Assembly (NCBI GenBank): GCA_026874595.1
Contig: CM049311.1
Coordinates: 38,212,676 to 38,276,675 of the forward strand
Length of the DNA: 64,000 nt
Direction: 5' to 3'
Origin: Sipunculus nudus
Taxonomy: Eukaryota; Annelida; Sipuncula; Golfingiida; Sipunculidae
A program made the translations under genes and the position numbers. This document shows positions 24,295-60,000 of the stretch, piece by piece (position 1 is the stretch's first letter; each line of letters starts with the position of its first letter). The notes under the pieces are model-generated. The model had not been told where the DNA came from. It was given only the letters and a program-made list of their open reading frames with translations, and did not search any database.

Positions 24295-25231
24295 CTTCCC
24301 CACGTGTCGATGTGACGACCTTGTTGGTAACACGTGACTAGGAAAACCCTATTTTTCTTGTAATGTGACGTCAGTATCGGAAATCCCCCACGCGACAAGC
24401 GCGCGGCAAGCGGCAAAAATCGCTCCGGGAGCGATCGCAGACACTCGCCGCGTGGCCGCCTGCGTGCCGTACGCGTGCCGCACGCGCCAGTGTGTTTTGT
24501 CATAAGTCATATATAGGGAAGCGATTTTTGCCGCCCGCATGACGCACGCGTGCCGCCCGCGCCAGTGTGTTTTGGCCTTAAGTCAAACCAATGCCAAGAT
24601 ATGAGTGATTTTATCCCAAGGCAGATGAACAGATGGACGCTGAACAAAAATGGTTGCAGGTGGCGCCACCAGTTTTGCGTATGATAAAGAGCTATACACA
24701 TGCAAAATTTCGGCCCAATCGGTCAAACGGTTCCCGAGATATGAGCTTGGATGTCTGCAACGTAAACGTGAATGCAGGTGGCGCCACCTGTCATAAAATC
24801 AAGAAAGCTGTCCAGGATGTATACACATGCAAATTTCAGGTGGATAAATCTAACCAATGCAGAGATTTGGCAGATGAACAGATGGACGCTGTGCAAAAAT
24901 GGTTGCAGGTGGCGCCACCATTTTAGCGATGTTATAAAGCTATCCAAGGGCTACATTTGTGCAAAATTTTTAGCCTGATCGGTCAAACGGTTCCCGAGAT
25001 ATGTGGGTTTATGTGTGGAAAAAGACGCATAAATGGACGCTGGGCAGAGAGGAAAGGTCAGAGGTCAACCAAAAATTAGGGCGCAGCAGTTCACATCTGA
25101 CCCTATCATAATTCCGAATTTCAAAAAATTCTGCCCAGTGGTTACGGAGGAATTCTCCGGAAACCTTTGCGGCGGCGTCCGACTGAAAACATAGTATCCG
25201 CAAAACTCTGCTTTGGCGGATATAATAATAG

Positions 25232-25322
25232 ACCTAAAATCAGTCAGGAGATCCAGTTCATTTCGCACAGACCTAGCATTTATCAAACAGAAAGAAAGGG
25301 GATGAAAAATCGCGTTTATCAT
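25232..25322 (-). pseudogene. Non-LTR retrotransposon endonuclease, N-terminal fragment
   Basis: Minus-strand frame reads FCLINARSVRNELDLLTDFR, the highly characteristic LNARSVRNKLD start of the APE endonuclease in CR1/Jockey-like LINE ORF2. It is cut by the family B element on its left. Bases to about 25665 may be further 5' LINE sequence but show no recognisable domain. Confidence 0.65.
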
Positions 25323-25664
25323 GACAATGACTATTATTACTTCTATTTGTGATTCTAACCGGGATATTCCTAAATCTTGTTATACCAGTAGCGGCCCCTC
25401 TATGGCTAGCCGGAATTCTGTTCATTTTGATAGAGATCGACGTAACTTACTCATAACTTCTGCTGGTAATTTCAAGTCCGCAGCAGTCACTGATTCTCTG
25501 ACGCTCCTCAGGAATATGGTGATATTTGATGTAATACGTTTCGCAGTGGCACTGTCGCATAATGAAACCGTGATCCAAACCCCACGAGCAATAGTCCGCC
25601 GTGTAGGTTAGAGGTAACACTTGAGTGAACGTGAATAATATCGTCGAAAATCCATTCATGGTCA

Positions 25665-25944
25665 CAGCTCAAATTCTCGGGAAATTTTAGATGAAAACAT
25701 AAATACTAAAGCCCTGGTAGGGCTATATGGCAACCCATGCCATCAATCCTTAGTTATGTAAGGGTTTGGTTCCTTTTCGTCCTAAATTGACTGTTTCAAG
25801 GGAGATAAACGGACGGTGGCTCGTATAGGACACACAGGAAATTGGTTTTATCTTGTTCCCACTCGATAATTATCCCGTTCCTACGCGATAGTGTCTACGC
25901 GATAGAATCTCGTTCGCACGCGATACATACATATACATATATAT

Positions 25945-26015
<71 letters not shown>

Positions 26016-26340
26016 GACAATACAGTAAGACCTGCATCTTAAATCTTTAAGGCATGTTCATATTTCTCTACATTGGAATAAGATTGAGGTCGATTTAATT
26101 GCAAACATATGGATCGGGCATTTAAACGCTGAGACCTTAAAGCGTGCAACAGCAACCCTTACGACACTAATTGGCCATGTTTGCTTAGAGAATGTGTGGA
26201 CGGGGTTAAAGGAGTAGGGATATAACATATGCCAAACTAAATTTTCATACTATCAGATGCAAAACTGAAACATTATTGAGGAAAGATCTGAGGGGGGGAA
26301 ATTGAGCAATTTGCTCATAATCGCCATTTAAAAAAAAACA
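25665..26340. repeat. No gene; CGCGATA-type short repeats and a long (TA)n tract
   Basis: Around 25855-25925 several phrases end in CGCGATA (for example TACGCGATAGTGTC, CACGCGATACAT). A near-pure (TA)n run spans about 25926-26012. Nothing coding was recognised. Confidence 0.5.
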
Positions 26341-26357
26341 ATATATTCCCCGAAAGA

Positions 26358-26717
26358 GTGTGGGGAAAAAGGTACTTGGTGGCTCACTACCTCCCCTTGA
26401 AAAGAGAGAGACTCTCTACAAGGAAGCAAAAAGAACCAGACATGTTTTATGACAACCAGGAAGAATGGGCAGATTTTAAGGTTTATTTTGAAACCATTGC
26501 GGAGTGGAATGGCTGGACGGAAGCCGAGAAGGCCTTGCAACTGGCTACATGTCTGTGGGGTAAAGCACAGAGGATACTTAGTGAAGTATCTGTGGAGAAA
26601 CGGCATGATTACTCGGCCTTAAAGGATGCTTTGGCTAAAAGGTTTTGTCCACCTGGCAAAGAGAGAGCGTTTCGGGCGAGGTTCTGCGAGCGTATTAGAG
26701 ACACTAAAGAAACCTAA
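26358..26717 (+). pseudogene. Gypsy gag fragment
   Basis: Frame with EWADFKVYFETIAEWNGWT, EKALQLATCLWGKAQ and ALKDALAKRFCPPGKERAF, the typical capsid-domain pattern of gypsy Gag (W..YF..A..N.W....KA..LA..L.G.A). It ends shortly after the junction near 26700 where the frame shifts into integrase-tail sequence. Confidence 0.65.
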
Positions 26718-26961
26718 ATGGACAACAGAAGTGAGGTCTCTCGTCTTGCGCAGAGGGCATACCCAGCGTTTGGCTGTGATGTCAGCTCGTTCGAAGCCGA
26801 AAGTGGTCCATGTGGATCAATTGAGACTGTATCCACAGGGGAACGACGGAGAAGACCCTGTAGATTGGAGCAAACCATCCTACGACCAAGTGGTGCTTGA
26901 ACAAGAGATGAGTGGAGATGAATCCGACCTGGGCTCGGAGTCGGGCGATGAGTTCATGTGA
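26695..26961 (+). pseudogene. Gypsy integrase C-terminal tail fused behind gag
   Basis: In the frame offset from gag, LKKPKW...KPKVVHVDQLRLYP is followed by an acidic tail (DESDLGSESGDEFM) and a stop. The KVVHVDxLxxY motif is the usual C-terminus of gypsy integrases. The direct gag-to-integrase junction indicates a large internal deletion. Confidence 0.55.
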
Positions 26962-27397
26962 TAGGGAGACTCCCATTAGTCCTAAAGAGGTCAACGTGAG
27001 AGATGCGTGAGAGGAGTTAGGGCGAGGTAAATGTTATTGGAAGCCTCTGGAACGCTTAGACTTATAGAGATTAGGGGCCTCCAGATCATAGTTGGTTCCT
27101 CTCTTATGTTGTAGACTTGTGATGATAGACTGGCAACCCTAGGAGAGTGACTGGCTGCAGAGACTGGGCTACCGCTGAGGATTAGGTCGGGAGTAAGGAT
27201 CCAGGATCCAGATGTGACTCAAGGAACACCATGGATCCGCATGGATGAGACACCCTTTGGAGTCACAAAGGACACTCGATGTGTTAAAAGCTGTTTTATG
27301 GACTTGTTTTATGTGTGAACTAATAATGTTAAATGAGTAATGTTATTTATTAGATGATTTCTGATCGGGGACGAACACTCTATAAAAAGGGGGGAGT

Positions 27398-27627
27398 TGT
27401 AGCGTATTTGGGGAAGGGACCGGGGAGGGGAGAGAGAGGCCAGTCCACACGGGACGTTGAGGTAACGCACTAGTGAGCCAGGAGACGGGTTGAGGAACGC
27501 AGGCAGCTCAAGACAAACTGTTTTGGTGGACATGTGTAGTGAGGTAGACGACAGAGCAGGCTGCTGTGGAGCAGCTGTGTACTTGATAAGCTAGGTATTA
27601 TGTTGTTGCATTAAACTTATTGTTACA
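27398..27627 (+). repeat. Probable 3' LTR of the gypsy remnant
   Basis: Begins TGTAGC directly after a purine tract and ends near GTTACA, giving imperfect short inverted termini. ATTAAA near 27610 could be its polyadenylation signal. There is no second copy in the window to confirm the ends. Confidence 0.45.
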
Positions 27628-27639
27628 GTTGATCTGTGG

Positions 27640-28815
27640 TGGTTGTTTCTGCCTTCGCCAAGAACCCCCCCCCCCCCCCCCATAATTTCGTTCAGCCCGA
27701 GTTATCGTCCAGCCAGATGGCTTACGAGGATATGTACCTTCCCAGGAATTAAAGAATAGGCTTGGGAAGTCGGTAACAAGGTACACCCCCTTAGCCTACA
27801 ATGAAGTTTTTGCTGTAAGCTTTTCAAACAAAGACATAGCACAAAGCGACAGGTTGTTTTTCTTAACCCTAAACTAAAATATGTAAGAATTTCCTGGAAT
27901 ATAAAATACAAAGGGACATGTACTCTGAAATTTAGAAAGCATTCAGTGCATCCACGTCCATGGCCGAACCACCCACACTCTTATCTCAAATGGTTTTCTG
28001 GGTTCTTTTTGGGGTGATACGGGTTCTTTACGGAACCCTTTGTGACAACAGAACATCAAGGTACCTATATCGGTTTTAAAGGTTTCTAAAGCCTTCTTTG
28101 ACACCAATGAGGGTTCGTTATACTGCAAATATGGGGTTCTTTGAAGAATCAGGAGATGTATGAATTATTCATATTGAGATTTACAGAAAAGAATACAATA
28201 TATTTAATATATTAAACTACAACAGGTTATTATGATCAATATAATTATTTCAATAAAATCAATAATCTTTTTCTTTTTTACCCCAGGAATTTATATAAAG
28301 TTTTTTAACTGTGTTATATGTACATAGTAATAAACTGATCCAATTAGCCAATCACAAGGCAGTGGATTTTAAACTGCCTTCTACAGCTAGTATTAAAATG
28401 GGGGTTAATTGAGTTATTCTCTCCCTTGGAATCGAGCAGTGGACCTTGAAGGCTGACGCAGCCCTCTGTGGCAGCCAGGGTATAGCTTTATTCACCAGGG
28501 TCGGTTAAGCCTGTGTCTACTACCTGGTGCGGCCACCAACTTAAAGCAGCAGTCATTAATTTTTTTCTAGCTGGGTATGTACATTTCCTACCTCATATTT
28601 AACTAAATCAGAAACATTACAGTTTTGATCATTTGAGAGATTAGAGTTTAAATTATATTTCAGTTAAACAGTGTTATTTTATTTCCTTTAATTATGCACA
28701 CACTGTTCAGTCCCCATTTCCCCCCAGAATTAGAAAGCAAACTACACTACAACAGGCGCGTGGACCTAAGACCAGGCGGACCCTACCCTTCAGCGACTGG
28801 CTGTATAGTAAAAGG
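27640..28815. other. Gene-free stretch with GGTTCTTT-rich repeat
   Basis: After a C15 run near 27666, the segment 27960-28145 contains GGGTTCTTT three times and related phrases. The inverted counterpart (AAAGAACC) is clustered at 34110-34370. The rest shows no coding sequence. Confidence 0.4.
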
Positions 28816-28822
28816 GGTGTAG

Positions 28823-30842
28823 GACAAAGGCCCACCCTGACAAAAGCCCACCCAGACAAAAGCCCACCGGACAAAAGCCCACCCCAAAAAGTGCAGATCT
28901 GGACAAAAGCCCACCCATGACTTAAATATATAATTAAATAATTTTACAATGTTCTTCTAAAGTTTTTTTTAAATACTACTGTATCATTTTCTAAATGTAT
29001 ATAACATTTTTTATATTAATGATTTAATTAAATAATAATATAATTATATAATTTTACAATGTTTTTCTAAAGTTTTTTTAAATACTACTACTTCATTTTC
29101 TAAATGTATAAAACATTTTTTATATTAATGATTTTAATATGTTACATATTTTATTAGTTTATGTGTTCATATACATGCTTATATATTTATTATGAAGTTA
29201 TCTGTGTTATATGTCTGTGTAGCTTGATAAAACATATATATATAAGTATATATATATATATGTGTATATATATGTTATATTTATATTTTTTATAGATCAT
29301 TTAATAGATCAATATATAATATTGTTGAATATGCCCTGCGAGTATTTCGCACATTCAAAACACGGTACTAAGGACACAAGAGCAGCTTTAAAAACGAGAA
29401 ATACAGAAACAGCATCACGTTCAGCCAGTATGTATGGACCCTGAAGGACGAAAAAAAAACCATATGCCATCAGTTGGAAAATACTCGCGAAACGCAGGGC
29501 ATATTCAACCACTACTAAGAAATGTAATTTATGCAACACGGAGAAATATTTCATCATACGAGACCGTAACAGAGCACATTAACTAATAGAAGCAAACTGA
29601 CCTCCACATGTAAACACAGGGCCAAGCACCTGCTGTGTAATATCAAGTAATCCTACAAATCCCCACCAAATAAACACAACAGCTACCTGGACCACGAAAA
29701 CCTTAACGAACCCAATAACCCAAGCTTAATCCAGCTAATTTAAACGGACAAATTTCACACATTATCATTTCAGATTGTACCTGAGGAGAGGGCCGGCTAG
29801 CAAGCTGAACCCACAAAACAGTACTGTAGTGCATCATGAAATGAAGCAAACTATACACATAGTATAATATTATTAATGCTCCCCGTACGGTAGAGCATTT
29901 TCACTGTGATGTATTGAACCTTAATGTATTATATTGATTATATTCATGTATATATATATATATTATATTGTATATATATAATATATAATGGTGTATATTT
30001 CCTGCAAATACAATAATGTGAATAGGCTAAGCAGTTATAATATAAATTATTTGTTAATCATAATAATATAATTTATATTTTAATTATAATTATATATAAT
30101 CTTGATCATTAAGTTCAACACAGGCTCATATACCACACACAGGGGAATGTGACACCAATCTCTTGAGCAATAATCAGGGTAATGAGCTAGCTAGTTTCTG
30201 ATGCGGGTCTCCACAGCTAAAGTTGTGCAATCAAAACAAACACAAACATCAAAGAGATTACCTGGGGTTCTCCTAAACTATTAACTTCATAGTTAAAAGA
30301 AATGTTAAATATATTTTATATATAATATATTATATATTATAAAATAATATAATCATAAAAGAATGATAATTGTACAAAGCGTATATACATGTAATTAAAA
30401 ATCCAATATATTATACATGTATATTTAAGTAAAATTACTATATTAATTATAATTAATATAGAATATTAATATATAATATAATGTATATATATTTCCTGAA
30501 AAAACAATAATAGTAGTGGGTTTTTAGGTAATAGGTATAACATACACTTAAGTTATATATATATATATACTTTTTATATCTGTTTTAGCAGGTTGCAGAC
30601 AGATATATAACAGATATATAAGCATGTATATGAGCACATAAACATATACAATACTTGCCTTTAGTATAAAAAGTGTTATATAAATGATAGAGTAGTATCA
30701 AAACAGAAAAACATCGCAAAATCATTTAGTTTTATATTTTAGTCAAGGGTGGGCTTTTGATCATGGAGGTCTGCGCACTTTTAGGGGTGGGCTTTTTTCC
30801 GGTGGGCTTTTGTCTGGGTGGGATTTTGTCTGTCGCCCCCGT
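28823..30842. mobile_element. 2-kb AT-rich element with GACAAAAGCCCACC terminal inverted repeats
   Basis: The left arm (28823-28920) has four to five tandem units of GACAAAAGCCCACC and an AAAAAGTGCAGATCTGG block. The right arm (30745-30840) is the inverted equivalent. The interior is very AT-rich, with a 110-bp tandem duplication (from about 28930 and 29040) and an internal inverted repeat (29323-29350 versus 29480-29516, core GAATATGCCCTGCG). No intact frame was found. The superfamily is unknown, and I could not settle a target duplication. Confidence 0.55.
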
Positions 30843-31069
30843 TGACAGAAAGCAATCTGGGTCAAATACACTGCAGCTTTTTCATTCTGCAGTCCCCTGC
30901 TTTAGCTCCAGGCAGTTTTTACAAATCGAAATCATGTTTGTACTCAGAATTTCTGTTCATTATACATCACAACCTTAAGAACAAATTTGCAAAAGCTCGA
31001 CCAAAGATAAATTTAATTTTTTTTGCAGAATGAGATGACACTGTCATATTATTTCCAAGGCGAACACAG

Positions 31070-31809
31070 GAACTACAATCTGGAGTAGATAGCATAGCAG
31101 AATGGTTTGCTAAAAACCGACTTGCAGTCAATATTGAAAAGACATATCCTTTATTGTTTAGATCACGTCATATGCAGAGTAATAGTGTTTAATACTTATT
31201 TCTTGTATTAAATGAATATTTAAATTGAGCAGAGCAAACCGAACAGATATCAAGTGCATCATCTTCTAAAATCGGTGCATTATTCAGAATCAGCAGATTC
31301 CCACCTATAAGGATGTACTTCTTAAGATCTATAAGGGCCTGATTCAGCCAACTGTTGACTATGGCATGACGATATGGGGGGTAACAACTGCTTATTTATT
31401 TTAACAAAATGCAGAAATTTCATAATTGTGCCCGTTCGTATTATCAGCCAAGTATTTGATTATGAATGTAATGTTAATGACCTTAGAATAATGCTGGGTA
31501 TATTCAATCATTAGAAGAACGACGCAAATGCCTTACCTGCTTGTTGGTTTTCAAACGTTTAAACAATAAGTACCCTTCATACATAACTGACCAATTCACA
31601 TATATACGCGGAGTGTACATACATATTGCACCAGGTCACATTCGACAGGGGCACTCCGTTTACCGATGACCCGGACAGACTATTTAAGAAATTCATTTAA
31701 ATTCATGGGCCCCAAACTATGGAATAGTCTACAAATAGAAACTAAAGAAGACCTTTCCCTACATACATTTAAGAAACGCATCAAGCACTTGATATCAGAG
31801 GGTCACTAA
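31070..31809 (+). pseudogene. Non-LTR retrotransposon ORF2 C-terminal fragment
   Basis: Plus-strand pieces: ELQSGVDSIAEWFAKNRLAV followed by NIEKT...LLFRSR (end of the reverse transcriptase palm/thumb), KIGALFRISRFPP, and at 31705-31809 GPKLWNSLQIETKEDL ... FKKRIKHL and a stop, the usual GPKLWNSLP...FK..L end of CR1/Jockey-type ORF2. Several frameshifts and stops show it is dead. Confidence 0.65.
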
Positions 31810-32298
31810 CGAACATGTGACATCTAGAATTTCTACTGAAATCATCTGATATTTTAACTTATATTACATGTTGCACGCATGTACTCAATTTTACCTCATT
31901 TCATATTCTGATAGTTTTACAGCTATTGTCTTTTTAACCAGGGCCATGTGGATTCGAAGGTCAGGCTATGCCTGAATATGTCACCCTTTATAAACATTTG
32001 CTTATAAATAATAAATTTGCTGTTAATAAATAAGCGTTGCTGAAGATAAGTGCTGTCGAAACACATTCATACATGTAAGTAAAGTTATTAAAAACTTATT
32101 TCCATCATTATATGATGTAAATCATCAACCATTTTTTAAACTTTTTAGATAAATGATGTCATCATTGACACCATAGAAACGATGTGATTTTTAATTTAAT
32201 GGGTAAATATGCAAAGTTTCAAAGGAAATATAAATTCGGAGTAAAATCTCAGATAACAGCTGCAAAATAAAATAGAGAATTAACCATGAGGATTAATC

Positions 32299-32568
32299 AT
32301 GCTTAATTCTTATTACGTGACAACATATATACTATTTTTTACATTTGTAGGAGGCAGACAGCTGTGTGGCAACCAATCTTCAAAAAAGGGGAAGAACACC
32401 CGCTTAAATCTAAGACAGCATCTTTGGCCATGGACAGAGTTCTCATTGTGGAAGAAACAGACACCGATATCAGTTGCGGTATACCGTGTCCTTACTCTTT
32501 GCAGCCTAATTGTAGTTTTATACTGCGTGTATGTGATCAAATATAAGCTGCGTGTGCACTTAGAATAA
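32299..32568 (+). CDS. Unassigned 89-codon open frame, one predicted membrane segment
   Basis: Has a hydrophobic stretch near its C-terminus (VLTLCSLIVVLYCVYVI) flanked by basic residues, and an acceptor-like ACATTTGTAG before codon 18. No family recognised, and it sits among repeats. It could be a chance frame. Confidence 0.15.
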   Translation: MLNSYYVTTYILFFTFVGGRQLCGNQSSKKGKNTRLNLRQHLWPWTEFSLWKKQTPISVAVYRVLTLCSLIVVLYCVYVIKYKLRVHLE

Positions 32569-32836
32569 CGCTTATCATTACAAATTATCCTGAAATTTAA
32601 TATGGTCTTTTCTTCTAAGTCTGTTGTTGAGTTGAAATTAAAATTGTTGCATGAACGTGATCGAAAAAGATTAGAAATGACACATTGCATTAGATTTCCA
32701 TCTTGCACCAACGGACTAAAAAAAACAGGGCAAAGCTACACATGGTACTTCATTGACGGATAAACCGTCATGTTTTGCAAGTTTCAATTAATCTTCCTTG
32801 CATCATACCAACAATTCACTGCAGTCTCATATTTGT

Positions 32837-32974
32837 TGTAACGGGTTGACATGAAAGCGGACCGAACTGTCTCGCTAGTGAAGCGGTTGGTACGCCAGAC
32901 TTGTGCGCCACCGTTATGGGTTCGAATCCCGGATCGGCCCAATGTTTTCCCCTGAACAATTTGTCTTCGTTACA
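32837..32974 (+). repeat. 5' LTR of the TRIM, with tRNA-like core
   Basis: About 82 bases (32858-32939) can be drawn as a tRNA-like molecule: GGACCGA near the 5' side pairs with TCGGCCC at the 3' side with one mismatch, and GGGTTCGAATCCCG sits at the T-arm position. Whether pol III transcribes it is unknown. Confidence 0.65.
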
Positions 32975-33094
32975 AAACGGGGGCTCGTCCGGGATGACGG
33001 TAAAACTTTGTGGCCCAGGGAATAAGCTTACCAAAGTGTGACTTATGGGATAATTAGTCTTGTTCTGATAGCAGAACGCTTTTAAGAAGGGGTG

Positions 33095-33250: not shown

Positions 33251-33257
33251 TTGTTCA

Positions 33258-35189: not shown

Positions 35190-35660
35190 TTTCACAGAAA
35201 CAAGTGACCCAGGGGTCATGACGCTCAGCCGACTAGGAAGATATTCACAAAAGTAGTTTAATCATCTGAATGCCATATTTTGTAGCTGGTATCCCCTTTC
35301 AACTGAAGCATAGCTCTGAGGATATGGGTAACAGAGACCTAATTTCAGCTTTCCAAAGAGATTTTTCATGGACCTTCCTGGATATCAAATAGGAAGATTC
35401 TTTGTGCAATGGTTACAATGTGTGCCCTGTTAACAGACGACAGTATCTTTCAAAGTATCAGAAATAGAGAAAAAAATTCGAAAAAATTCGAAAAATACAG
35501 GTGGCGCCACCAGCTTGCACGAACTTACGAAACACTCAATGATCAGTACATGCATGCAAAGAATTCTGGTGATCAATGCATTACTTGTTTAGATACTGAA
35601 GCTTTTGCATCAATTTTCAATTTTTTTTTTCAGGTTTCCTAGGAGAGTTTTTATGGACCT
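35190..35660. mobile_element. Tandem-core element, head family E with one core unit of family C
   Basis: Head phrase AAGTGACCCAGGGGTCATG then ACGCTCAGCCGACT, followed by a C-type unit with TAACAGAGACCTAATTTCAG and AGGTGGCGCCACC at 35499-35511. The same head begins the larger element at 52.59 kb. Confidence 0.55.
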
Positions 35661-35989: not shown

Positions 35990-37330
35990 TTCCATCTATC
36001 GTCTAGAGAATCAATATTTCCCCCAAATATGGGGGCCAATACGGTGAATCACCCTTGAGAAAAGGGGATTTATTCATACTATAAAAATTGTAAGTTAGGT
36101 GGCGCCACCTGTCTGGTTGACGAGAAAACTCTCTAAGATGGATGTACATGCCAAATTGGAGACCAAAACATTGAACGACTCTTCAAATATAAGCAATTTT
36201 CACCTTAAACAAATGGACAGATGGACGCCACGGCAAAACGATTGAAGGTGGTGCAACCATTCTTGAGTACAAGATCGAGGAGTTTAAGATCTATGGCTAT
36301 GCACAATTTCAGGCCAATGGGCAAATCACTCCTCAGAAAAGGGCATTGATTTATCTACAATAACGGGGAGGTAGGTGAAGCCATCTTCTGGTTTACGAGA
36401 AAACATTCATAGATGGATATCCATGCCAAATTTCACACCAATACCTTGAACCACTCCGGAGATATGAGCAATTTTCACCCGAAGCAAATGTAGAGATGGA
36501 CGCCACGGCAAAACGTTTGCAGATGGCGCACCATTCTTAAGTATAAGGTGGAGGAGACCATCAATTTCATCCCAATCTGTGCATTATTTTTAGGCTTATA
36601 ATGCTCACAGTACTGTCAAGTGGCAATGATGGGATATTAAAAGGCGCGAAAACAAGTAAAAAGACAGAAGGTGGCGCCACCTGTCTTCCGCATAAGATAA
36701 AGCTTTCCAAGATCTTCGGTCAATTTGATTTTTGGACCAAACCATGCATCCCTCTCCAAGATATTTATGATTTTGTGCGATTATTGCCATATATGGCAAT
36801 ATTCAAGGGGGCAAGGCCACGCTCATAGGAAGGGGCATGACCCCAATTTAAATATACATCATTCCATAATCCATGTCTATGTATCTGCATGATATGAAAG
36901 AAATCTGTCAAATAGTTTTTGACGTATAATGCTCACAGACTGTTAAGTGGCAATGATAGGGGTATTAATCGGCACCAAAACAAGAAAAGGATACTGGGTG
37001 GCGACACTAATTTCCGGTACATGACAACACTATCCAAGATCTTTAGTCAAGTTGAGTTTTGTATCAATCCATACAAGATTTAAAGATAATTAAGAATTTG
37101 TGTGATTTTCTCCCAAAATGGACCTATTCAAGGTCAAGGTCACTGTCCTTTTTAAGGCCATGACCCTATTTTTAATAGGCTTCGTCCTCTGAGCCATATC
37201 TATGCACATTTCAAGTTTGGTAAAGATCCATTAAACATTTTTTTGAGTTATAGAGTCCAAACGAAATCTCGGCGGCGGCGGCGCGACCGTGCTTAAACCA
37301 TAGTATCCCAACTTTGTCTGGGGATACAAT
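35990..37330. mobile_element. Tandem-core element, family D
   Basis: Units with AGGTGGCGCCACC at 36097 and 36669 and decayed versions near 36247, 36520 and 36996. ATAATGCTCACAG recurs at 36599 and 36926 (period about 326). It ends in the hairpin GTATCCC ... GGGGATAC at 37303-37327, preceded by GGCGGCGGCGG and CCATAGTATCC. This 3' architecture is shared with family B. It interrupts a LINE reverse transcriptase. Confidence 0.6.
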
Positions 37331-37999: not shown

Positions 38000-39240
38000 T
38001 AAACAAGGCCTACAGGCCTAATGCGAACCTGTGCAATGGTTTATACACCAGGTATAATGCTTCGATTCTGGGCCATTACTTTACAAGTAGGCCTACATGT
38101 CTTGTATACGACGAAGGTATCAGAGAAGTATACATATGCCCTATTTCAGGCTGATATCCCTTCCTGAGAAATAAGCAGGGACATACACTGTGCAAAAATT
38201 ATTGTAGGTGGTGCCACCAGTCTTGTTTACGACAAAGCTTTACGATATGTAATAATTTGCCCAATTTAAGCTGACATATGAAGTCGCAACCGTTTTTAAT
38301 CGTTTTGTATTTATTTTGTGGTGTTGTGCTCGTGGCAAGAAATTCATAAACCGGTATTTTTACTTTGAAGACTAAATTGGTGAGTAATGTTTACATTTGC
38401 GAACCAGAATGGGGCGCGGGGACATTCTGTAGTTCGATTATCTTTGACTGGATACGATTGCAGGACGTACAAAGAATAAGTTGATGTGAGGAAGACATGA
38501 ACGATGGATTAAATGTACGTTTTAAGGCAAGAAAAATATTCCTGAAGAAAGATACGGAAACATGCATACCTCGTTAGTAGCAGAAGGGGACCCAAATGAA
38601 GTCGAAACCGTTTTTAATCGTATCAGACCAATTGTGAGGCCTGGAAACCCCGCGTCCACCTATCCTCACCCCTGTTCCGGAAATTTAGACCTTTTATTAG
38701 GTTTTGTCATTAATCCCCCTTGGTTGAACCCCTTCTTTTCATAAAGCTAAAGTCATGTGTTTTTCACATTTACCGACCACGTGGGTCAGAGCCAAACATG
38801 CTTAAATCCCTAACTGTAAGAGAGTAGGGTTATTCACATACACCATAGACCTTAATTTAAGCCGCTTAATTGCGTGCTTGAGGGATTGTTGTGAATAACA
38901 AAAAGGTCGCATTCCGGTCTTTGCCAAAGGAAGTTCCGATGCTTTTGTTACATGGTACTCTCCCCGAAATATGGAAATCAGGGAATATCACTGAAAACTT
39001 TGTGTACATGAAACATTATTGATTGTCATCGCGGCCATGTCACTGCGGGAATAATAACCTTTTAAATGAGGTATGGCACAGTGTCATACGCAGCGTGGTT
39101 CTAGAGAACATTGCGAACAAAGGTGAAGCAAATTCCTTTTATAAGTATTACATATTTATATTTAAAATGTTTTGCAGGTTTATAACTCATATAGGCAAAT
39201 ACAGCAAACTGGCCAAGTTCAGCTTCCCGTAACTCAGCTA
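38000..39240. other. No gene; repeat debris
   Basis: Contains a degenerate GGTGGTGCCACC unit (about 38205), an AAGGCCTACAGGCCTAATGC phrase also found at 61457, and a fragment of the GGATCCGCC-type element (38630-38745). No coding sequence was recognised. Confidence 0.4.
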
Positions 39241-39299: not shown

Positions 39300-40068
39300 T
39301 GAGATTTAAGAATTTGAACCAGTGGTTTCTGAGAAGAAGATCTTTGTAGCCTCTGAGCTAAAATGTGCTGCTATTGCATATGACTATATTCAACTACTCA
39401 TTACTCAGCCAAAAGTCACTAAACAGAGACCATTTGAACAAACTTCAGAAAGCTCTACCCTAGGATCATTTCTGTGTGATATTAAACAGTTTGGCCATAT
39501 GGTTTCAAAGAAGAAGTTCTTTGTAGTCCTCAGTATGATACAGGCACTGATGACCCCCGTACAAAAAAAGGCCGATGCAGGTGGCGCCACCAATACCTCA
39601 ATTTCAGATATGATTCATGTGACCAACATTGGCATAAAACTTGGTGATGATAGCTCCAGCCGTTTCTGAGATTGAACTTTTTGTATGTTTTTTTTTTTTT
39701 TTGACAGATGACGAAGTTCAACTTCCTGTAACTCAGCAAAAAATCATCGAACTGAAACCCTTCGAACAAACATGAGAGAGATGGTATAAGCTTATTTCTG
39801 TGAAATATTGAACAATTTTGCTGGACCGTTTTGAAGGAGAAGATTTTTAAAGTTTTTTTTTTTTTGCTTTTTCCCTTCAAAATCTAAGAAAATATAGTTA
39901 GCCAAAAAAAATAAGCAAAATCCGATATAGTTTTTCATATGGCTATTTTTTTTTTTTTTTGTATAAAATTTCGTGATGCTAGCACCTGTCGTTTTTTAGA
40001 TAGTATGGGTTAACGCACAGACGACGGACGACGCCACACCATCGCATTAGCTCACAGGTTCGCTAAAA
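39300..40068. mobile_element. Tandem-core element, family F
   Basis: Two core units about 323 bp apart (CTCAGCCAAAAGTCACTAAA at 39409, CTCAGCAAAAAATCATCGAA at 39732), one AGGTGGCGCCACC (39579-39591), and a 3' tail GACGACGGACGACGCC ... AGCTCACAGGTT. The same tail ends the copy at 61.6-61.98 kb. It lies inside the split LINE. Confidence 0.55.
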
Positions 40069-49705: not shown

Positions 49706-51510
49706 ATATTCTACATCAGAACATGCACAAGCTGATGTACTTAATGATTCTTATCTACAGAAATTTTTGAGTGCATTTCCATATAGGAGTGAATCTGTTA
49801 GGTACATATTTTATAAGGTATATTTTCAAACTGACTGTGCCCTAAAGCCATATGTGCAGTATTGTCCAAAGATCAGCTTGTTATCCCAGGTTTATTATAA
49901 AGTTTAAATATGTAGGTATATTTATTATAAATGTTTTATAACAAATCCTTGCATTTTTTACATAATCCAAATCTTTGCCTTACTAAGAAGTATTAGTCTC
50001 TTTTCATTTTCATTTAAACATGATGGTATTTATAGCTTATACATGCTTATTATAAACTACTTAAAATTATGGTGGTCTTGCTGTGAAATATTGTTACTGT
50101 ATTTTTCATGTTATATGATATATTAATCCTGCATTTGTTTGCCTGTGATACTTTGTATATAGTTAGTAGGGAGTATTTCTGCTTATGCAGGTGTGCATTT
50201 ACCTTATGAACTATTGTCATACAGAATTTATCAAACCATCATGAATAGTCTTCCATAAAATAACCTCTTCCTGTCATTTAATGTCCTGTTATCTTCATCT
50301 CCTTACATTCATCTGTATGTGATATCCAAATCTAGTGACAAATATTTTCTATCTGTGGACCAGGGCCATAGTCAGGATTTTGGACAGGGGGGGGGGAATG
50401 GGGAAGAATTTTGGATTGTCAGATTTTCTGCGGAGAATGCTTTTTTTGTAATTAACCTAACGACCACCGCCCCTTTGACATAATAATGCAAATAAGCATC
50501 ATGACACTTCTACTCAGAACACTTTTCATGTGTATGGTTGTGAGAGCTGTTTATATTATTAGACAATAGTACCTTCACAATGAAGTCACAAAGGTCTTTC
50601 GCGTATGACTTCACATTGACTGACATCATCAGCTTAAATTGCATGTTTATATCTCTAGCGATATAGTGATATATCAAAATCATTGTGAAGTGTTTTGTCA
50701 TATTTTCGATTATATGTCTCATACAAATTCAGTGCAAAGTGAGACATAATTTTTCACTCACTGTCAGTGGAATATCTCCTGCAACCTTTCAGGAAGCAAT
50801 TTTTGTACTGTCTTACATCCCAAACTATATCGGTCCTGTTGATTTTGGGAGAGTCGCCCAAATTGTGTAAATTTTGGGCTTGTCCAAGTAGTTGCCAAAA
50901 TTATGTAAATTTTCCGTTTGTCAAGTGATAGACTGTTTACATTGCAAAAGGTAACCTGTTGCTCTGCTCATGATTATTCATCTAAGTTGGTAATAAATAT
51001 GCTATTGTGGTCATGTATATTTCATGGTTAGGTCAATTGCTGCTTGGATGGGATGCGCCTTAAAGAGCCTGACTGAAGTTTAAAAAGTATATTAATATTT
51101 ATAAATGACTATAAAAGGGTAATGTAAGCACTAGTTAAAGTAATGCCCATGATTCAAATATGTCACTGTTATACATGTTTTTAATTGATCTTATACCAAT
51201 GGTTGTCAAGAGATCACTCGTTATACATTGTCTAACAATATTAAAATGTTATATTAATTTGTAAAGTTAATCATGCTTTTTGAGATGTCATTAATTTTAG
51301 CCATAGGGTAAATATTTAAATTTGTAAAACCCTTGCAAGTATATTGAAAACATTGTTACTGATGTGAAAGTTGAACACTTATCATTTCATGTTTTTAGGT
51401 ATCATACCAAGTAAAACTGTCACTTATCAGTATTACACTTTTGCAGTATTAAAGTTAAGTGAAAACAGTGTTTCTGGGTTTGTTCAAAATACAAATAAAC
51501 TTTCATAAAG
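49706..51510 (+). other. Probable 3' UTR and downstream flank of the unrecognised gene
   Basis: AT-rich, with AATAAA at 50992-50997 and 51494-51499 as candidate polyadenylation signals. It also contains a G10 run near 50389 and repeat family H copy 2 (50515-50830). The true transcript end cannot be fixed from sequence. Confidence 0.35.
50515..50830 (+). repeat. Dispersed repeat family H, copy 2
   Basis: Same order of motifs as 45090-45390: GAGCTGTTTATATT, GTTTTGTCATATTTTCGATT, GTGAGACATAATTTTTCACT, TGTACTGTCTTACAT. Confidence 0.55.
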
Positions 51511-52585
51511 AACATCCACTCTCCTGTAACAATTTGTTTTCAAGAGGTTTACAGCAGGATTAATTTACAAGGAAAATTTCAATATTAACATAATTCAAGC
51601 ACTTTCAAAAACATTGGAAATTAAATAAAATGTTTCAAGGATTTTTAAATATTCAAGGAAAGTTCAGGGAACCTTTGGGAATATATCTCATATGCATTAC
51701 AAATAGTAAAAGCTTTGACGTTTAACCTGTTAATAAAACTCAAGAAACCACACCATCACTTTCAGTATATCATTTAATTTCACAGATGCATAATATTGTA
51801 CATGTTTGTTGTCATGCTTTGCACACAAAGAAATTTTTATTTGCTTTGAACATTACACTCAAGAAATTATGTACAAATGATTTTTCCATTGCAGAGAACT
51901 TTAAGCAGGAGGGCATAACAGGCATTCTTATTAAACAATACAAAGTGTGATATATCTGTCCTTTAACCTTTTTACTCATCCAAATGAGGGCATACTTCTT
52001 AGATAAAGGTTTACCACAGGCTATATGCAGAAGAAGATATCATATGAAGAAGAATGGCATGTTGTTCTGTGACCTGCCAGTAGTGGTGTGCCTGTTAATT
52101 ACTTTATTGATAGTCATTTTCTTTCACATTTGATTAAATTGAATGCATTTATATAAATGACTGTGTGCACACATCCAAAGAAGTCATATGATCAAGATAA
52201 TTCTGCCATAGACAGCTCACAAAATCTGTGAACAGCATTATTAAATCTTTACCTTGTGCAATGAATAAGTGTCAACAAGCAGGATGTAGAAGACTTAATT
52301 TACTTGGCAATTATTTTACACCTTCCTATACAGTAGATTTCATGGTATTACAGAAGATTCATAAAATGATTGATAATTGATCATTGGTTGTATTTTATCT
52401 TTCAGTCATCAAATATGATTTTATAACTGTTTCCTACCATTTCCATCTAGCATGAAGCACCTTGCCAGTACAGGGTTAATCTTTGGAAATGTAAATTTAA
52501 ATTCACAACAAGGACCATCAAATTAAAGGCACATACAAACATTAAATAATACGGGGACTATCTCATGCTGTCAGTTCATTTGGCT
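51511..52585. other. Gene-free stretch
   Basis: AT-rich sequence with no recognised coding, RNA or mobile sequence. Confidence 0.4.
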
Positions 52586-52589
52586 GAAT

Positions 52590-55500
52590 AACAAGTGACC
52601 CATGGGTCATGACGCTCAGCCGACTGACATGTTGATAATATGTCCTTGCACAGACAACTAATTAAGATAGGTGGCATCATTGTTCATGCATATTAGCTTA
52701 AGTTCATCAAGACCCATAAGCACAACAAATTTGATGACAATCCAACCAGCCTTTCATGAGGAATCTGGTAATTTGAGTGTATTTTGCATTATTTCTGGGG
52801 TGCTCAAACATACCCCAAAACTTTGAGAATATAGGTCACTGTGACCCAATTTCAGGTTTCTGGGGAGAACTTTTGAGGAACTCTCAGCATGTCAAGTTAG
52901 AAGAATCTGTGCCCCATGGTTATGATTTGTGCCCTACTTTAGTATCAAATTTTCAATTATTCTGAGGGGTGCTTATAAGCCCTATAGCTCAGAAAATATG
53001 GGTAACAGAGACCTAAATTCAAGTTTCAAAGGAGACTTTTCACAGATCTCCCTGGTTATCAAGTTTGAAGATTCTAGGACAGATGTTTAAAATTTGAGCT
53101 CTGTTAAGGGATGACCGCATCTTTGAAGGTCTCAAAAATAGAGAAAAAAAATGTGTTGAAATTTTAGAAAAATTAAGGTGGTGCCACAAGTCCGCAAGAA
53201 CTGATGAAACACTCCATGATTCATTGGCATGCAAAGAATCATGGTGATCAATGCAATAGATATTTAGATAATGGAGCTTTTGTATCAAATATTTAGTTAT
53301 TCTAGGAGGTACTTCTAAGCCCCATAGCTCGGAGGATATGGGTAACAGAGACCTAATTTCAGTTTTCCAATGATTTTTTTATGAATCTCCCAGGATGTCA
53401 AGAAAAAAGATTCCAGGTCAAACAGTTTTGATTTGTGCCCTGTTAACAGACGACCACATCTATGAAGGTCTCAAAAATTAATGATGAAAATGCATAAAAA
53501 CTCAAAGAAGTCCAGCTGGCACCACCAGTCTGCAGGAACTGATGAAACCCTCCATGATGCATATGCATGCAAAGAATAATGCCAATCAATGCACTAAATG
53601 TTCAGATACCAGAGCTTTTGTATAAAACTTGATGGCATCTTTTAAGGTCTCAAAAATAGAGAAAAACTAGAATATGGGTAGTCGACAAGGGACTGTGTAT
53701 CCGCCAAAATGGGAGTGGAACAGGTGAAGTGAGGCATGGATTGAGTGGCAAGAGGAAATAGAGTGAGGTGTGTTGCACATTAGCATGGATGTATGTGGCT
53801 GAAATGTGTATGTAGGTTGCACCACCTACCACAAAATCCAGAAAGCTGTCCAAGTTGTATACATATGGAAAATTTTAGGCAGATAAGTCAAACCACTACA
53901 TGTATATGAGTGATTTTAGCCCACAGCAGACAAACAGAAGGACTTGTATGAAAATTGTGGCAGGTGGCGCCGCAAATTTTGTGTATGATTAAGAGCTGTG
54001 AGATCCATACACATGCAAAATTTCAGGGGGATATGTTCAACCAGTCCTGAGATATAAACCTGAATGTCTGCAGCTTTAACAGAAATGTAGGTGGCACCAC
54101 CTGCCAAAAAAATAGATATAATGTATAAACATGCAAAATTTTAGGCAGGCAAGTCAAACACTACTGAGATATGAGTGATTTAAGCCCGCGGCAGACAAAC
54201 GGACAGACACTGTGCAAAAATGGTTGCAGGTGGCCACTCCAGTTTTGTGCATGTTAAAGAGCTATGTGAGATCTATACACATGAAAATTTTTGCCCAATC
54301 GGTCAAACGGTTCCCGAGATGTGAGCTTTGATGCAGTGTAAACTAGAATGTAGATGGTGCCACCTCTCATAAAATCAAGAAAGCTGATCTAGATGTATAA
54401 AACTGCAAAATTTTAAGCAGATATGTCAAACCACTGCCGAGATATGAGTGATTTTATCCCACGGCAGACAAACAGATGGACACTGTGAAAAAATGGTTGC
54501 AGGTGGCACCACCAGTTTTGCGTATGATAAAGAGCTGTGTGAGATCGATACACATGCAAATTTTCAGGAAGACATGTCAAACCAGTCTGGAGAAATAAGC
54601 ATGGATGTCTGCAGTGTGAACATGAATGTAGGTGGCGCCACCTGTCATAAAATCAAAAAAGCTATCCAGGATGTATATGCATGCTGAATTTCAGGTGAAT
54701 TAGTCCAACCACTGCAGAGATATGAGTGATTTTAACCCAAGGCAGATGAACAGGTGGACACTGTGCAAACATGGTTGCAGGTTGAGCCACCATTTTTTTG
54801 TATGTTATAAAGAGCCACCATTTTTTTGTATGTTATAAAGCTATCCAAGGGCTACATTTGTACAAAAAATTTTTCCTGATCAGTCAAATGGTTCCTGAGA
54901 TATGTGGGTTTATGTGTGGAAACGGACACACAAATGGACACTGGGCAGAGAGAAAAAGGTCAGAGGTCAACACCAATTGGTAAGGCACCAGTTCACAGCT
55001 GACCCAATTCTTGGTGTAAGTTTTGGAAAAATCAGTCCAGTAGTCTCAGAGGAGTTCTCCAGAAACATTAGCGGTGGTGGCAGAGGCAGAACCCGGTCAA
55101 AAACATAGTATCCGCAAAACTTTGTTTTGGCGGATACAAAAATCGTAATAAAAATCGAAAAATACAGGTGGCTCCACCATTCTGCAAAAACTGATGTAAC
55201 ACCCCATTATCAATATCCATGCAAAGAATCACGGTGATCAATGCATTAGTTGTTCAGATACTAGAGCATTTGTAACAAATTTCTCATTATTCTAGGGGGT
55301 ACTTCGGAGCCCCACAGCTTGAAGAATATAGGTAACAGAGACCTAATTTTATCATGGACCTATCTGGATGTAAAGTTAGAAGATTCCAGATCCAGCATTT
55401 ATGTTCACAGATGATGGCATCTTTTAAGGTCTCAAAATATATAAAAAAATTGTAAAAAAAAAAAATACAAGTGGCACCACCAGTCTGCAGAAACTGATGA

Positions 55501-56060
55501 AATACTCCATGATTAATATCCATGCTAAGAATCATGGTGATCAATGCATTAGTTGTTCAGATACTTAAGCTACTGTATCAAATTTTTCATTATCCTGGGG
55601 GGTCCTATAGCTTGAAGAATATGGGTAACACAGACCTAATTCCAGGCTTCCAAGAAGACTTTTCATGAACTTCTCTGGATGCAAAGTGAAAGGATTCCAG
55701 GTTCAGCGGTTATGATTTGTGCCCTGTTAACAGATGACGGCATCTTTTGAGGTCTACAATTTTTTTTCTCTATTTTTTAGAGAAAAAAAATTGTAAAATT
55801 TGAAAAAATACAGGTGGCGCCACCGGTCTGCAGAAACTGATGAAACTCTCTATGATCAACATCTATGCAAAAAATCATGGTGATCAATGCATTAGTTGTT
55901 CAGATTCCAGGTTTCCAAGGAGATTTTTCATGGACCTCCCTGGATGTAATGTTAGAAGATTCCAGGTCCAGTGGTTATGATTTGTGCCTTGTTAACAGAC
56001 AGAAGGCCGGAAGGCTGACGGACAAAGAGTGATTGCTATAGCTCATATGACTTCATATGT
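52590..56060. mobile_element. Large tandem-core element: head E, core units C, tail
   Basis: Begins ACAAGTGACCCATGGGTCATG then ACGCTCAGCCGACT and ends GGACAAAGAGTGATTGCTAT then AGCTCATATGACTT. Core units repeat every 303-343 bp, with GGTGGCGCCACC or variants at 53177, 53515, 55167, 55470 and 55813, each with TAACAGAGACCTAATTTC, GATTCCAGGTC and GATTTGTGCCCTGTTAACAG. A family B element is nested at 53667-55140. It lies between the unrecognised gene and TIPRL. No coding content. Confidence 0.65.
53667..55140. mobile_element. Complete-looking tandem-core element, family B, nested in family C
   Basis: The 5' end CTAGAATATGGGTAGTCGAC is followed by TGTATCCGCCAAAA at 53696-53709. The exact reverse complement TTTTGGCGGATACA stands at 55125-55138 and also closes the 3' hairpin (55108-55137). 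Between them are about five dimeric core units. Both flanks are parts of a single C unit (CAAAAATAGAGAAAAA on the left, AAAAATCGAAAAATACAGG on the right), so it inserted there. Confidence 0.65.
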
Positions 56061-56099
56061 TCCAACAAAGACTTAATATTTCAAATTTACCCATTTAAC

Positions 56100-56932
56100 A
56101 TGTTATGGTCCTGTGTGTGAGTAAACAAAGTCCACATCTGTCAGTTTACCATAACATGACTTTACAACAGGAAGGCAAATCTTTCACATGCTCAACAACT
56201 CCCAAACAAGAATAAACATGGACATACTAAGTTGTGAAACACTAGTTGGAAGCTTTAGAAATTACTGTACATGAAATTGGGTGGTATAGCTAATAGGTGA
56301 TGTGCGCTCTATGTTTGTATTTTGCGCCACTGATTGTGTCCAGGGCATTTATATTTAACAAGAGTGCAGAAGTGAGCAATCATTTTAGAATAAAATGTTG
56401 CCAAAATATTTCCATGAGAAACACTATAGGTCATGTTTACTGGATATACCCGGAAACTAAATATGTATGTTTAAAATCAAGTGTTTTTTACCACTCTCTC
56501 ACAGGTACCTTTGGTCATTTAGCAAGAGTATATCCTAGACAAATGTACTGTGATTAGTAAAGCAACTGTCATGTCCAACTTCATTGTAAACTGGTGTAAC
56601 AGATTGCTGATGCACTGGTTGGCAAGTGGAGTTGACATTCAGATATGAGCCACATGGTCAACTGTGAAATATTAACTGGTGCTGAACATTTCTTAAATGT
56701 ATCTCTCTGCAAAAGCTTAAGCACTCATTCTGTCTGATGTTTGGTGCTCCCTGAGAAAAGAAGGCATAATTATCCAAGCAAATTTAGTTCTGTATCCGTG
56801 TCACAGCAGTTGTGTACAGGATATTTTTTTGGTAAATTAAATGTGAGCCTCCGATGAGAGAAGTAAAAGATGAGCTCTCAGTCTATGATCATAAGTCTAT
56901 GATTTAAATAGTACTTGTAATGTAACAGCAGG
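56100..56932 (-). other. TIPRL 3' UTR and flank
   Basis: Sequence downstream of the TIPRL stop with no other gene. No clear AATAAA was found on the minus strand, so the end of the transcript is not set. Confidence 0.4.
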
Positions 56933-57061
56933 TCACCTGATCACAGATGGTGATTCTGATTGGTTTGTTTGTTCAGGAAACTCCAGTTTCTCTAATCTTT
57001 CTTCCTTGAGAGTTAAGTATTGAATTATCTCATTTTGGTCTGTGAGTATGTGTAATGGAAC
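56933..57061 (-). CDS. TIPRL: TIPRL terminal exon
   Basis: 43 codons including TGA at 56935-56933. The [20 protein letters not shown] block aligns with human NEISQYLPIKE...EKLIFPE. The last residues are Ser/Gln-rich and variable, as in other species. Acceptor CTATTTTCAG. Confidence 0.96.
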   Translation of the reverse strand, partial: VPLHILTDQNEIIQYLTLKEERLEKLEFPEQTNQSESPSVIR

Positions 57062-60000
57062 CTGAAAATAGAAAATACAAGGAAGTTATTACTCTTGTTT
57101 CAACATACTACATAAGTCTAAGTATGCAATAAGTTTTTGTCCTACCAAAATCAACTGACAAAAGGGTAATGATGCTCAGCTGACTAGCATGACATTATAG
57201 GCTAATATTCACCTCAGAAATTTTATCATCTGAAAACCAAATTGAGATTAACTTCAGATGTGATCTTGACCTTAGACCTTCTAAAATCCAAAGTTGTGGG
57301 TTCTTTCTCAAGCAATGGGTCACACATATATATAGAGTGAATCGAAATCATGACTGGTCTATAAAGATATGCAATACTTCATATGTTATGGGGTTTACAA
57401 TAATACTGTATTATTTGGCTGATTTGACCTTGAAGATCAAGTTATGATCACCAGTTCTTGAACTCCCCTGAGAAATTGGTTGAAACAATTTGTCTGTCAA
57501 ATTTGAGGAAAATATGCCATTCTTCAAAACACAGACAGTTGAAAATTGGGGGTCACAATCCTATATTTCAACTGATATGACACTGAGGATCATGGTTTTT
57601 AAATCATATGAAAACTTGTAAAAACAATTTGTGTGTATTCAATGTGTGGGAACAAAGATGCAGTACTTCAAAAGTTATTTGTTCACAAGAAAACCTATAT
57701 TTTTCAGGATCAGACCTTGACAGTCAAGGTCATCAGTTTTCAAATTCATCTGCAATACTGACTGGAGCAAACTTTGAATCCAATTTGAGGAAAACATATG
57801 CACATCTTCAAACATTGTGTGACTTCCATGGTGCTCAAAAGCATGTTTTTGCTGTATAGTTCGCAGAAGATAGGTCACTTTGGGTGTCTTATGAGATTTT
57901 ACCAAGATCTCCCTAGATTTTTAGTTAGGAGTTTCAAGGTGTAATGGTTATGATTTGTGCCCTGCTAATGGATGGTTGGATGATCAGTCAGTCAGACATT
58001 TGGACAGGAGGAGAACGGACAAAGACCCATTGCTAAGGCTCAGCATGAAAAATTCAACTAGCTAAAAAACTAGAATACGGGTAGTCGACAAGTGACTACA
58101 TGTATCCGCCAAAATCAGAGTAGGACGGGTGAAGTGAGGCATGGATTGAGTGGCAAGGGGAAATAGAGTTACATGTGTTACATATTAGAATGGATCTGTG
58201 CAACGTAAACATGATTGTAGGTGGCGCCACCTGTTATTTGAATACACATGCAAAATTTCAGGTGAAAAAATCAAACCAATGCAGAGATATGAGTGCTTTT
58301 AACCCAAGGCAGACAAACAGATGGACGCTGTGCAAAAATTGCTGCAGGTGGCGCCATCATTTTTGTGTATGTTATTAAACTTTCCAAGGGCTACATTTAT
58401 GTAAATTTTTTTTCCTGATTGGTCAAACAGTTCCAGAGATATAAGCATTAATGTCTGCAGCATGAACGTGAATGTAGGTGGCGCCACCTGTCATAAAATC
58501 AAGAAAGCTATGCGGGATGTATACACATGCCAAATTTCAGGTAATTTGGTCAAAAGACTGCAGAGGTATGAGTGATTTTAACCCAAGGCAGACAAACAGA
58601 TGGACACCGTGCAAAACTGGCTGCAGGTGGCACCACCATTTTTGTATATGTTATAAAGCTATCCAAGGGCTACATTTGTGTAAAATTTTTTCCCTGACTG
58701 GTCGAACGAGTCCGGAGATATAAGCATGGATGTCTACAGCGTGAACGTGAATGTAGTTGGTGCCTCCTGTCATAAAATCAAGAAAGCTATGCGGGATGTA
58801 TACACATGCCAAATTTCAGGTAATTTGGTCAAACCACTGCTAAGATATGAGTGATTTTAGTCCAAGGCAGCCAAACAGATGGATGCTGTGCAAAAATGGC
58901 TGCAGGTGGCGCCACCATTTATATATATGTTTTAAAGCTATCAAAGGGCTACATTTGTGTAAATTTTTTTCCCTGACTGGTCAAATGGTTCCCAAGATAT
59001 GAGCTTGGATGTCTGCAGCATTAACTTGAATGTAGGTGGCGCCACCTGTCATAAAATCAAGAAAGCTATCTGGGATGTATACACATGCCGAATTTTAGGT
59101 GAATTAGTCAAACGACTGCAGAGATATGAGTGATTTTAACCCAAGGCAGATGAACAGATGGACACTGCAAACATGGTTGCAGGTGGTGCCACCTTATTTT
59201 GTGTATGTTATAAAGCTATCCAAGGGCTACATTCATGTAAAAAAATTTTCCAGATCGGTCAAAGGGTTCCCGAGATATGAGGGTTTATGTGTGGAAACAG
59301 ACGCACAAACGGACGCTGGGTAGAGAGGAAAGGTCAGAGGTCAAGGCCACTTGGTAAGGCACCAGTTCACATGTGACCTGATAATTTGTGTAAGTTTCGG
59401 AAAAATCCGTCCAGTAGTCTCAGAGGAGTTCTCCGGAAACGAACGCCGCCGCTACGGCGGAACCCGGTCAAAAACATAATCATTTAGTGGTTTCACAAAG
59501 ACCATTACTGCATATGCACAATGAATGGATGAGTCTACATGTGTGTTACTTTGTTGGTACAAAATCATTATCAATGCCTTTGTTTAAGAGTAAGCCTGGT
59601 GCTCACTAACTTTAAATGCTTAAGATTTAGGGTGCTTCTCTATATACCAGTACGCTTTATGCCATGCCTTTGCTGCACAGTAAAAATCCAACCAGTTAAT
59701 AAGCCATGTTATATCTCAATGAGTGTGTATGCTGCACGGCAAAGGCATACAAATGTTTGTATGGGAAAAGACTGGCCATGCAGCAAACACATGCATTTGC
59801 AGCACAGCAGAAACTGCAACATACATGAAAAAAACCAGCCTTTCTCCTAAGGAAGGTTGCTGAATACCATAAAACCTACTGATATAATTATCATTAAGAT
59901 GGTCTAAACAGTTAACCATTTACTTTATTAGACTGAAAGTAATAATTTCTTTTGATCCATTCCATACTTAAATATCCTACTAGTCGAAGGATAGTTAAAG

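Follow-up and report, generated by a model that had tools for sequence, protein, structure and literature searches.

A 12-letter palindrome that recurs in the tandem cores of several mobile-element families of Sipunculus nudus

The stretch of DNA analysed here (hereafter, the window) comprises 64,000 nucleotides of the genome of Sipunculus nudus (assembly GCA_026874595.1, contig CM049311.1, positions 38,212,676 to 38,276,675 of the forward strand) and contains several families of repeated elements whose units carry one short palindrome. This motif, GGTGGCGCCACC, consists of 12 letters and, together with a preceding A, forms the 13-mer AGGTGGCGCCACC. An earlier note on the same DNA had listed 13 perfect copies, each directly preceded by A, and had considered such a number to be beyond chance. 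All 13 copies were recovered at the listed starts, the A was found directly before the motif in 13/13 cases, and no copy occurred across 100 dinucleotide shuffles of the window. With up to two mismatches, 31 matches were found in the window against 0.48 expected; two of these, at 28526 and 37277, apparently lie outside the repeat families and look like chance matches.

The motif-carrying elements in the window, designated by letters and all located on the + strand, begin with a B-type element (24579..25229) that has perfect motifs at 24659, 24777, and 24908 and a 3' terminal hairpin region at 25186-25228; no 5' end of this element was found. An element originally designated D (35199..35617) belongs to the F family: its 5' end (35199-35252) is of the F type, and the motif of its one core unit starts at 35500. 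It is followed by a B-prime array (36034..36556), a diverged relative of B with spacings of 149 and 127 and motifs at 36098 (perfect), 36247 (two mismatches), and 36374 (three mismatches), and by a C array (36574..37204) of two units 327 bp apart, with motifs at 36670 (perfect) and 36997 (two mismatches). K-type units (38085..38290, limits by eye) include GGTGGTGCCACC at 38207, while the motif position of the unit preceding the one at 38207 is occupied by left-flank sequence. At 38003-38088, the left end of another element (AACAAGGCCTACAGGCCTAATGCGAACCTGTG) meets the K-type core at the motif position; the same left end, slightly changed, is also present in three of the additional loci described below (L004, L034, and L053). 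An H-type unit (39540..39674, left limit by eye) has a perfect motif at 39580. An F element (52590..56054), with its 5' end at 52590-52631, its 3' end at 56017-56054, and core-unit motifs or variants at 53177, 53515, 55167, 55470, and 55813, is interrupted by a complete B element (53662..55143). The latter, inserted in the F array, has a 5' subterminal inverted repeat (subTIR), a tandem 130/149-bp core, and a 3' hairpin; its motifs and variants span 53815-54780, the sole perfect one being at 54631. Another B element, without the last 3' hairpin (58065..59478), has motifs and variants at 58220-59182, of which four (58220, 58477, 58905, and 59035) are perfect.

Element ends were established for B and F only among the families and, for these two, the motif carriers are non-coding elements with the architecture of HINEs (non-autonomous Helentrons). 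Independent B copies (53662 and 58065 in the window) have a base-exact common 5' boundary. Alignment of B ends, of which 28 five-prime and 17 three-prime ones were found in the window and loci L001-L086, yielded a 13-bp subTIR pair, with GTATCCGCCAAAA at the 5' end and TTTTGGCGGATAC, inverted, within the 3' hairpin. F ends are unlike those of B and consist of a 12-bp subTIR pair (GCTCAGCTGACT and AGTCAGCTGAGC) plus a 3' stem-loop, with a second right-end type present in some F arrays. Both subTIR lengths lie within the range of about 11-15 bp that characterises HINEs. The end regions of both families recur across many loci, and the 3' stem-loops folded with z-scores of -5.93 (B) and -5.37 (F), with none of 200 shuffles equally stable. 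At the 5' end, B has a short inverted repeat, GTAGTCG...CGACTAC, beside the subTIR (folding z -3.34) and F has GACCCATGGGTC, by eye a short inverted repeat or palindrome near its subTIR. At least four T residues immediately precede 12 of the 28 B 5' ends and, by eye and for one insertion, no target-site duplication was seen where B interrupts F in the window. The central tandem cores have a period of 278-279 bp in B (130 + 149-bp dimers) and of 338 bp or about 336 bp in F. No stop-to-stop frame of at least 110 aa was found within the B elements at 53662-55143 and 58065-59478, and the F array holds a single frame of 112 aa at 53040-53378. In its subTIRs, 3' stem-loop, and central repeats, this architecture resembles that of the DINE-1/HINE elements of Drosophila and a mite, whose subTIRs measure 12-15 bp and which insert in T-rich DNA without modification of the target site; however, the portions of that paper drawn on here (PMC4067079) mention no core motif that several families have in common.

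B elements were located inside F arrays in the window (52590-56054) and in L003, L008, L011, L013, and L036. In these five loci, the place of B in the F array is the same, a few bases upstream of the motif; this recurrence suggests multiplication of an F + B composite as such. The B 5' ends in L001, L006, L022, L034, L037, L046, L053, and at 61618 in the window have a common flank ending in GACATTTT (or GAACATTTT, GGGACATTTT), and other B 5' ends (L001, L034, L039, L051) have a flank ending in CACAACACA; these two recurrent flanks point to nested insertion into two further repeats. On contig C1, the first 100 listed B places within the first 3 Mb were oriented + up to 1.08 Mb, - between 1.10 and 1.40 Mb, and + after 1.49 Mb, and the listed B places there formed three orientation runs in 43 clusters (p 5e-5); one B five-prime-end cluster reads - at 1.62 Mb. 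Orientation domains were not significant for F (five runs in 31, p 0.19), nor for B over 35 Mb, where 98 five-prime-end clusters formed 46 runs vs 49 expected (p 0.29). The pattern of B in the first 3 Mb of C1 is possibly a local effect.

Beyond the window, the palindrome recurs in the tandem cores of several distantly related mobile-element families. In the chromosome-scale host genome (1.43 Gb), 111,729 exact motif copies were counted, as compared to 14 copies of the reversed word. Twenty extra stretches around exact copies, picked from 100 listed genome places, contained 22 such copies, all of which (22/22) were assigned by inspection to the described repeat families (nine to H, six to C, four to B, two B-prime-like, and one F-like). 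For comparison of the cores, contexts with no more than one mismatch in the motif, 261 in all and excluding those too near a locus end, were grouped into 13 clusters. Eight families, representing 254 contexts (B149, 90; B130, 90; F, 43; H, 14; C, 7; B-prime, 5; K, 3; G300, 2), entered the family alignment, from which five small clusters (7/261 contexts) were excluded. Mean pairwise identity of the eight consensus sequences was 98% in the motif, 47% in the 88 columns to its right, and 35% in the 37 columns to its left; the K consensus has a motif with a CA centre. These values agree with the statement in the earlier note that the remaining core sequences differ greatly, but kinship was detectable beyond the motif. 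A motif-free profile built from seven families detected the eighth in 8/8 leave-one-out tests, with 0/500 shuffles detected in each, and, based on these sequence comparisons, the eight core families are probably diverged relatives. A second, weaker box, approximately TTCCTGAGATAT, is located roughly 75 nt downstream of the motif in the alignment and is poor in K. Motif-free queries gave 40 core matches in the window and L015-L026 (118 kb), 34 of which have the motif in place with at most three mismatches, while shuffled letters never gave fewer than five. This search was not fully blind, since motif-bearing families supplied its queries and the window had been chosen for the motif.

Conservation of the motif was compared with that of its flanks. 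Loci L001-L014 and L067-L086 had been chosen by the motif and the window by the finding itself, L015-L026 by fixed coordinates, L033-L052 by a motif-free B 18-mer, and L053-L062 by a motif-free F 18-mer. Divergence, column, and centre-inheritance tests were restricted to units of the window, L015-L026, and L033-L062, and the queries had the motif masked. Units with less than 60% of a flank aligned were excluded and, in the pair test, so were two B149>B130 units in which the motif was mostly gapped. Within families, motif and flank identities were 0.907 and 0.858 (71 B units), 0.932 and 0.879 (44 B units of the other junction type), and 0.883 and 0.863 (25 F units), and the whole motif ranked 42/160, 16/160, and 68/180, respectively, among 12-column windows. 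Perfect motifs were present in 21, 26, and 6 units by junction type (53/140 in total). For the motif-chosen loci, listed apart, motif identities were 0.941, 0.970, and 0.933.

In the pair test, units from different loci were compared and classified as close (flank divergence below 11%) or distant (18-30%). Close B pairs showed motif-to-flank ratios of 1.05 (bootstrap 0.52-1.61) and 1.08 (0.21-1.89) at the two junctions, with flank-window medians of 1.25 and 1.33 and with 31/113 and 38/131 windows as low as the motif. In distant B pairs, the ratios were 0.39 (0.25-0.53) and 0.26 (0.09-0.40), with window medians of 1.05 and 0.85, and the motif was the 8th lowest of 114 and the 2nd lowest of 132 windows. 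The F close-pair ratio was 1.51, from just five pairs. Finer divergence bins followed the same trend with two exceptions, both at 0.92, namely B130>B149 beyond 28% and F at 22-28%. In individual copies, the motif thus appears to decay at about the pace of its surroundings, whereas the lineages that spread kept it, which points to selection among replicating elements and not to host function or a mutational cold spot. Selection on the motif, as proposed in the earlier note, was thereby supported between lineages of B, with F falling short of significance, and not on the individual copies.

The same note had proposed that the CpG at the centre of the motif is preferentially kept, which was contradicted by the data. 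Identities of the two CpG columns were 0.86 and 0.59, 0.82 and 0.86, and 0.56 and 0.76 by junction type, so that the least conserved motif column was a CpG column in 3/3 junction types (0.59, 0.82, and 0.56), and 45,683 copies with a CA or TG centre were found genome-wide next to the 111,729 with CG. The symmetric TA centre occurred in 633 copies (reversed word, 64), as compared to approximately 4,670 expected if the centre positions were independent. Preservation of the palindrome by compensation was therefore not supported; a deficit of TA centres would also result from a second step that is slower once CpG is lost. A seemingly compensated variant, AAGTAGGCCTAC at 38085, was identified as the left-flank junction of a K element (17-mer, 160 exact copies vs 1). 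For the CA units of F, the closest unit at a different locus had an identical centre in 6/6 cases (P 0.0024), and for the TG units in 8/10 (P 0.05), and non-CG centres look inherited in this family; no such agreement was seen in B. Some F subfamilies appear to have spread with a CA or TG centre, and CG at this position therefore does not seem to be essential.

With a probability of roughly 0.5, we interpret the motif as an internal signal that is kept by selection among spreading element lineages and not by selection on genome-resident copies. The 13-mer would then be the leading and least variable of two boxes in a unit that is arranged in tandem in the centre of several HINE families that may all descend from one ancestral core unit. 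Elements with a motif-bearing core would spread better, by which the motif would persist. The motif may act as a putative internal site that is recognised by a DNA-binding protein, possibly a dimer, with an element-encoded Rep/helicase complex or a host factor as candidate binder. Such a site could be used during replication or mobilisation of the element, and several sites per core would raise its occupancy. That the palindrome and the GAGATAT box, at near-fixed spacing, form a core cis-signal common to families with different ends, which one protein recognises and which is needed for efficient mobilisation, is a more specific proposal that we put forward tentatively.

A search for autonomous partners identified at least 143 Helitron_like_N matches in the genome, some of them within frames of more than 2,200 aa. 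Of 14 loci with Helitron-type frames, 12 had no motif with at most two mismatches, and one (L090) had two motif variants 331 bp apart; an autonomous partner carrying the motif was not found among these 14 loci. L087 contains a whole B element, which is apparently a separate insertion. In L063 and L066 (beside C11:50385293 and C4:36174940), frames of more than 2,200 aa have tandem arrays of their own close by, with units of 69 bp in L063 and of 148 and 331 bp in L066.

Several observations weigh against selection among spreading lineages. Neither six Helitron-type domain loci nor the stretches flanking four long frames showed B or F ends of their own. Non-CG centres are common, look inherited in F, and characterise the K consensus. 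In B, the ten non-CpG motif columns showed a modest within-family excess over the mean non-CpG flank column of +0.076 (95% 0.056-0.096) and +0.061 (0.013-0.096). The distant-pair ratio in F, 0.74 (95% 0.37-1.23), was not significant, with the motif 28th lowest of 158 windows, and the wide close-pair intervals leave room for some constraint on copies. Moreover, a single chromosome contributed 113 of the 140 units, all within its first 3 Mb, and unit pairs are mutually non-independent. The cross-family identity of 98% is in part a product of construction, because families were first gathered by the motif, and motif-less families would be missed by a motif-based collection; four of the eight consensus sequences were derived from few contexts (C, 7; B-prime, 5; K, 3; G300, 2).

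Plain inheritance of an old common unit, in which uneven mutation or GC-biased conversion makes a GC-rich motif slow to change and nothing requires it, is consistent with the homology of the families in all eight leave-one-out tests and with the observation that, within B, 63/149 and 77/149 non-CpG flank columns are conserved at least as well as the motif mean. However, the motif changed at about the flank rate in close pairs, which, within wide intervals, does not look like a cold spot, and it was retained in distant pairs and across families even though its CpG columns diverge most. We therefore regard this explanation as doubtful. A host function of single copies under purifying selection, for example as an insulator, a centromere component, or an E2F-like regulatory site, would fit the very high copy number, and the part of PMC3734150 drawn on here gives the 8-bp core TGGCGCCA as an E2F motif. 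The perfect motif indeed has the [C/G]GCGC[G/C] core of an E2F/DP site, but beyond one T/A its flanks are GG/CC instead of A/T-rich, so that an E2F site leaves the outer GG/CC unexplained. An E2F-type core is also disfavoured by the CA and TG centres, since these disrupt GCGC and, in F, look inherited. As copies decay approximately like their flanks and just 53/140 flank- or coordinate-chosen units have a perfect motif, a host function is improbable.

The earlier note had offered repeated exchange between families as another explanation of the motif, which the flanks did not support. Left and right flanks belonged to the same family in 238/261 contexts, so that between-family exchange is not needed, and the 23 exceptions looked, by inspection, like insertions of other elements, deletions, or diverged units, without a clear cross-family hybrid. 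In favour of exchange, palindromes have been reported as breakpoint sites in one clam satellite, according to the portions of PMC5139131 drawn on here, the K array in the window meets its left flank at the motif position, and 4/14 F array left ends lie 9-28 bp before a motif. On balance, transfer of the motif between families by recombination or conversion at the palindrome is quite improbable. Even lower odds are given to a motif that works as a DNA or RNA hairpin. Its perfect dyad would allow a 4-bp stem with a GCGC loop, but the single-stranded DNA fold was no better than that of shuffles (z 0.20), and the 633 TA centres, against approximately 4,670 expected, indicated an absence of compensation, with the proviso that a slower second step after CpG loss lowers this count as well.

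Elsewhere in the window, a GGACAAAAGCCCACCC minisatellite and its inverted copy (28822-30832) flank an AT-rich stretch of approximately 2 kb, possibly a separate inverted-repeat element. A search of the whole window against Rfam for known RNAs (hammerhead or other) gave no match at the gathering threshold; between 52500 and 60000, just six matches were obtained, all with scores far below gathering scores, and a known-RNA reading was rejected.

In the portions of the literature consulted, the closest precedent is provided by the Cg_HINE and BIV160/Cg170 repeats of oysters and other bivalves, and the present case is of the same kind. Cg_HINE elements of Crassostrea gigas carry short satellite-like central arrays, in some cases two, between HINE flanks with subTIRs and a 3' palindrome, and clusters CL1/2/10/13 and CL4 have two conserved segments in common, while the remainder is dissimilar (PMC7492417). 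The S. nudus elements likewise combine satellite-like arrays between HINE flanks with a segment common to otherwise dissimilar cores; here, by contrast, a 12-bp palindrome is found in eight sampled cores and across different ends (B and F), a comparison made by description and not by letters. The BIV160/Cg170 satellites constitute an old family that has diverged, yet has two well conserved motifs, and that is linked to Helitron-type elements (PMC5139131), which resembles, by description, the conserved motif in diverged units reported here; in that system, junctions had no statistical link with the motifs. For the phBglII400 satellite and the DTC84 element, the same source describes either a monomer that contains a 12-bp palindrome or a palindrome conserved close to the repeat junction, similar to the palindrome in the core units of S. 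nudus. Their array breakpoints, however, fell in a longer palindrome in 13/16 cases, whereas here, by eye, F right ends common to several loci sit away from the motif and 4/14 F left ends precede it by 9-28 bp. The 12-mer itself occurred in print in one paper of the literature searched, on a chitinase. A palindrome that is common to many cores with different ends and that decays in copies but is retained in lineages was not found there, as far as the consulted portions go, and those of PMC8268682 and PMC11136912 describe no core motif.

The motif bears on the question why Helentron derivatives carry short satellite-like arrays, which have been treated as captured or self-generated repeats (PMC7492417, discussion). 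Its retention across lineages suggests that the palindrome helps the elements to spread. A motif with such a pattern, decaying in copies yet retained in lineages, would demonstrate that selection for spread acts on the core itself, and could explain more than 10^5 copies of one short word without a host function. The motif thereby offers a concrete site for binding and mobilisation tests and, if the tentatively proposed two-part cis-signal is real, the tandem 'satellite' core would serve a function instead of being filler.

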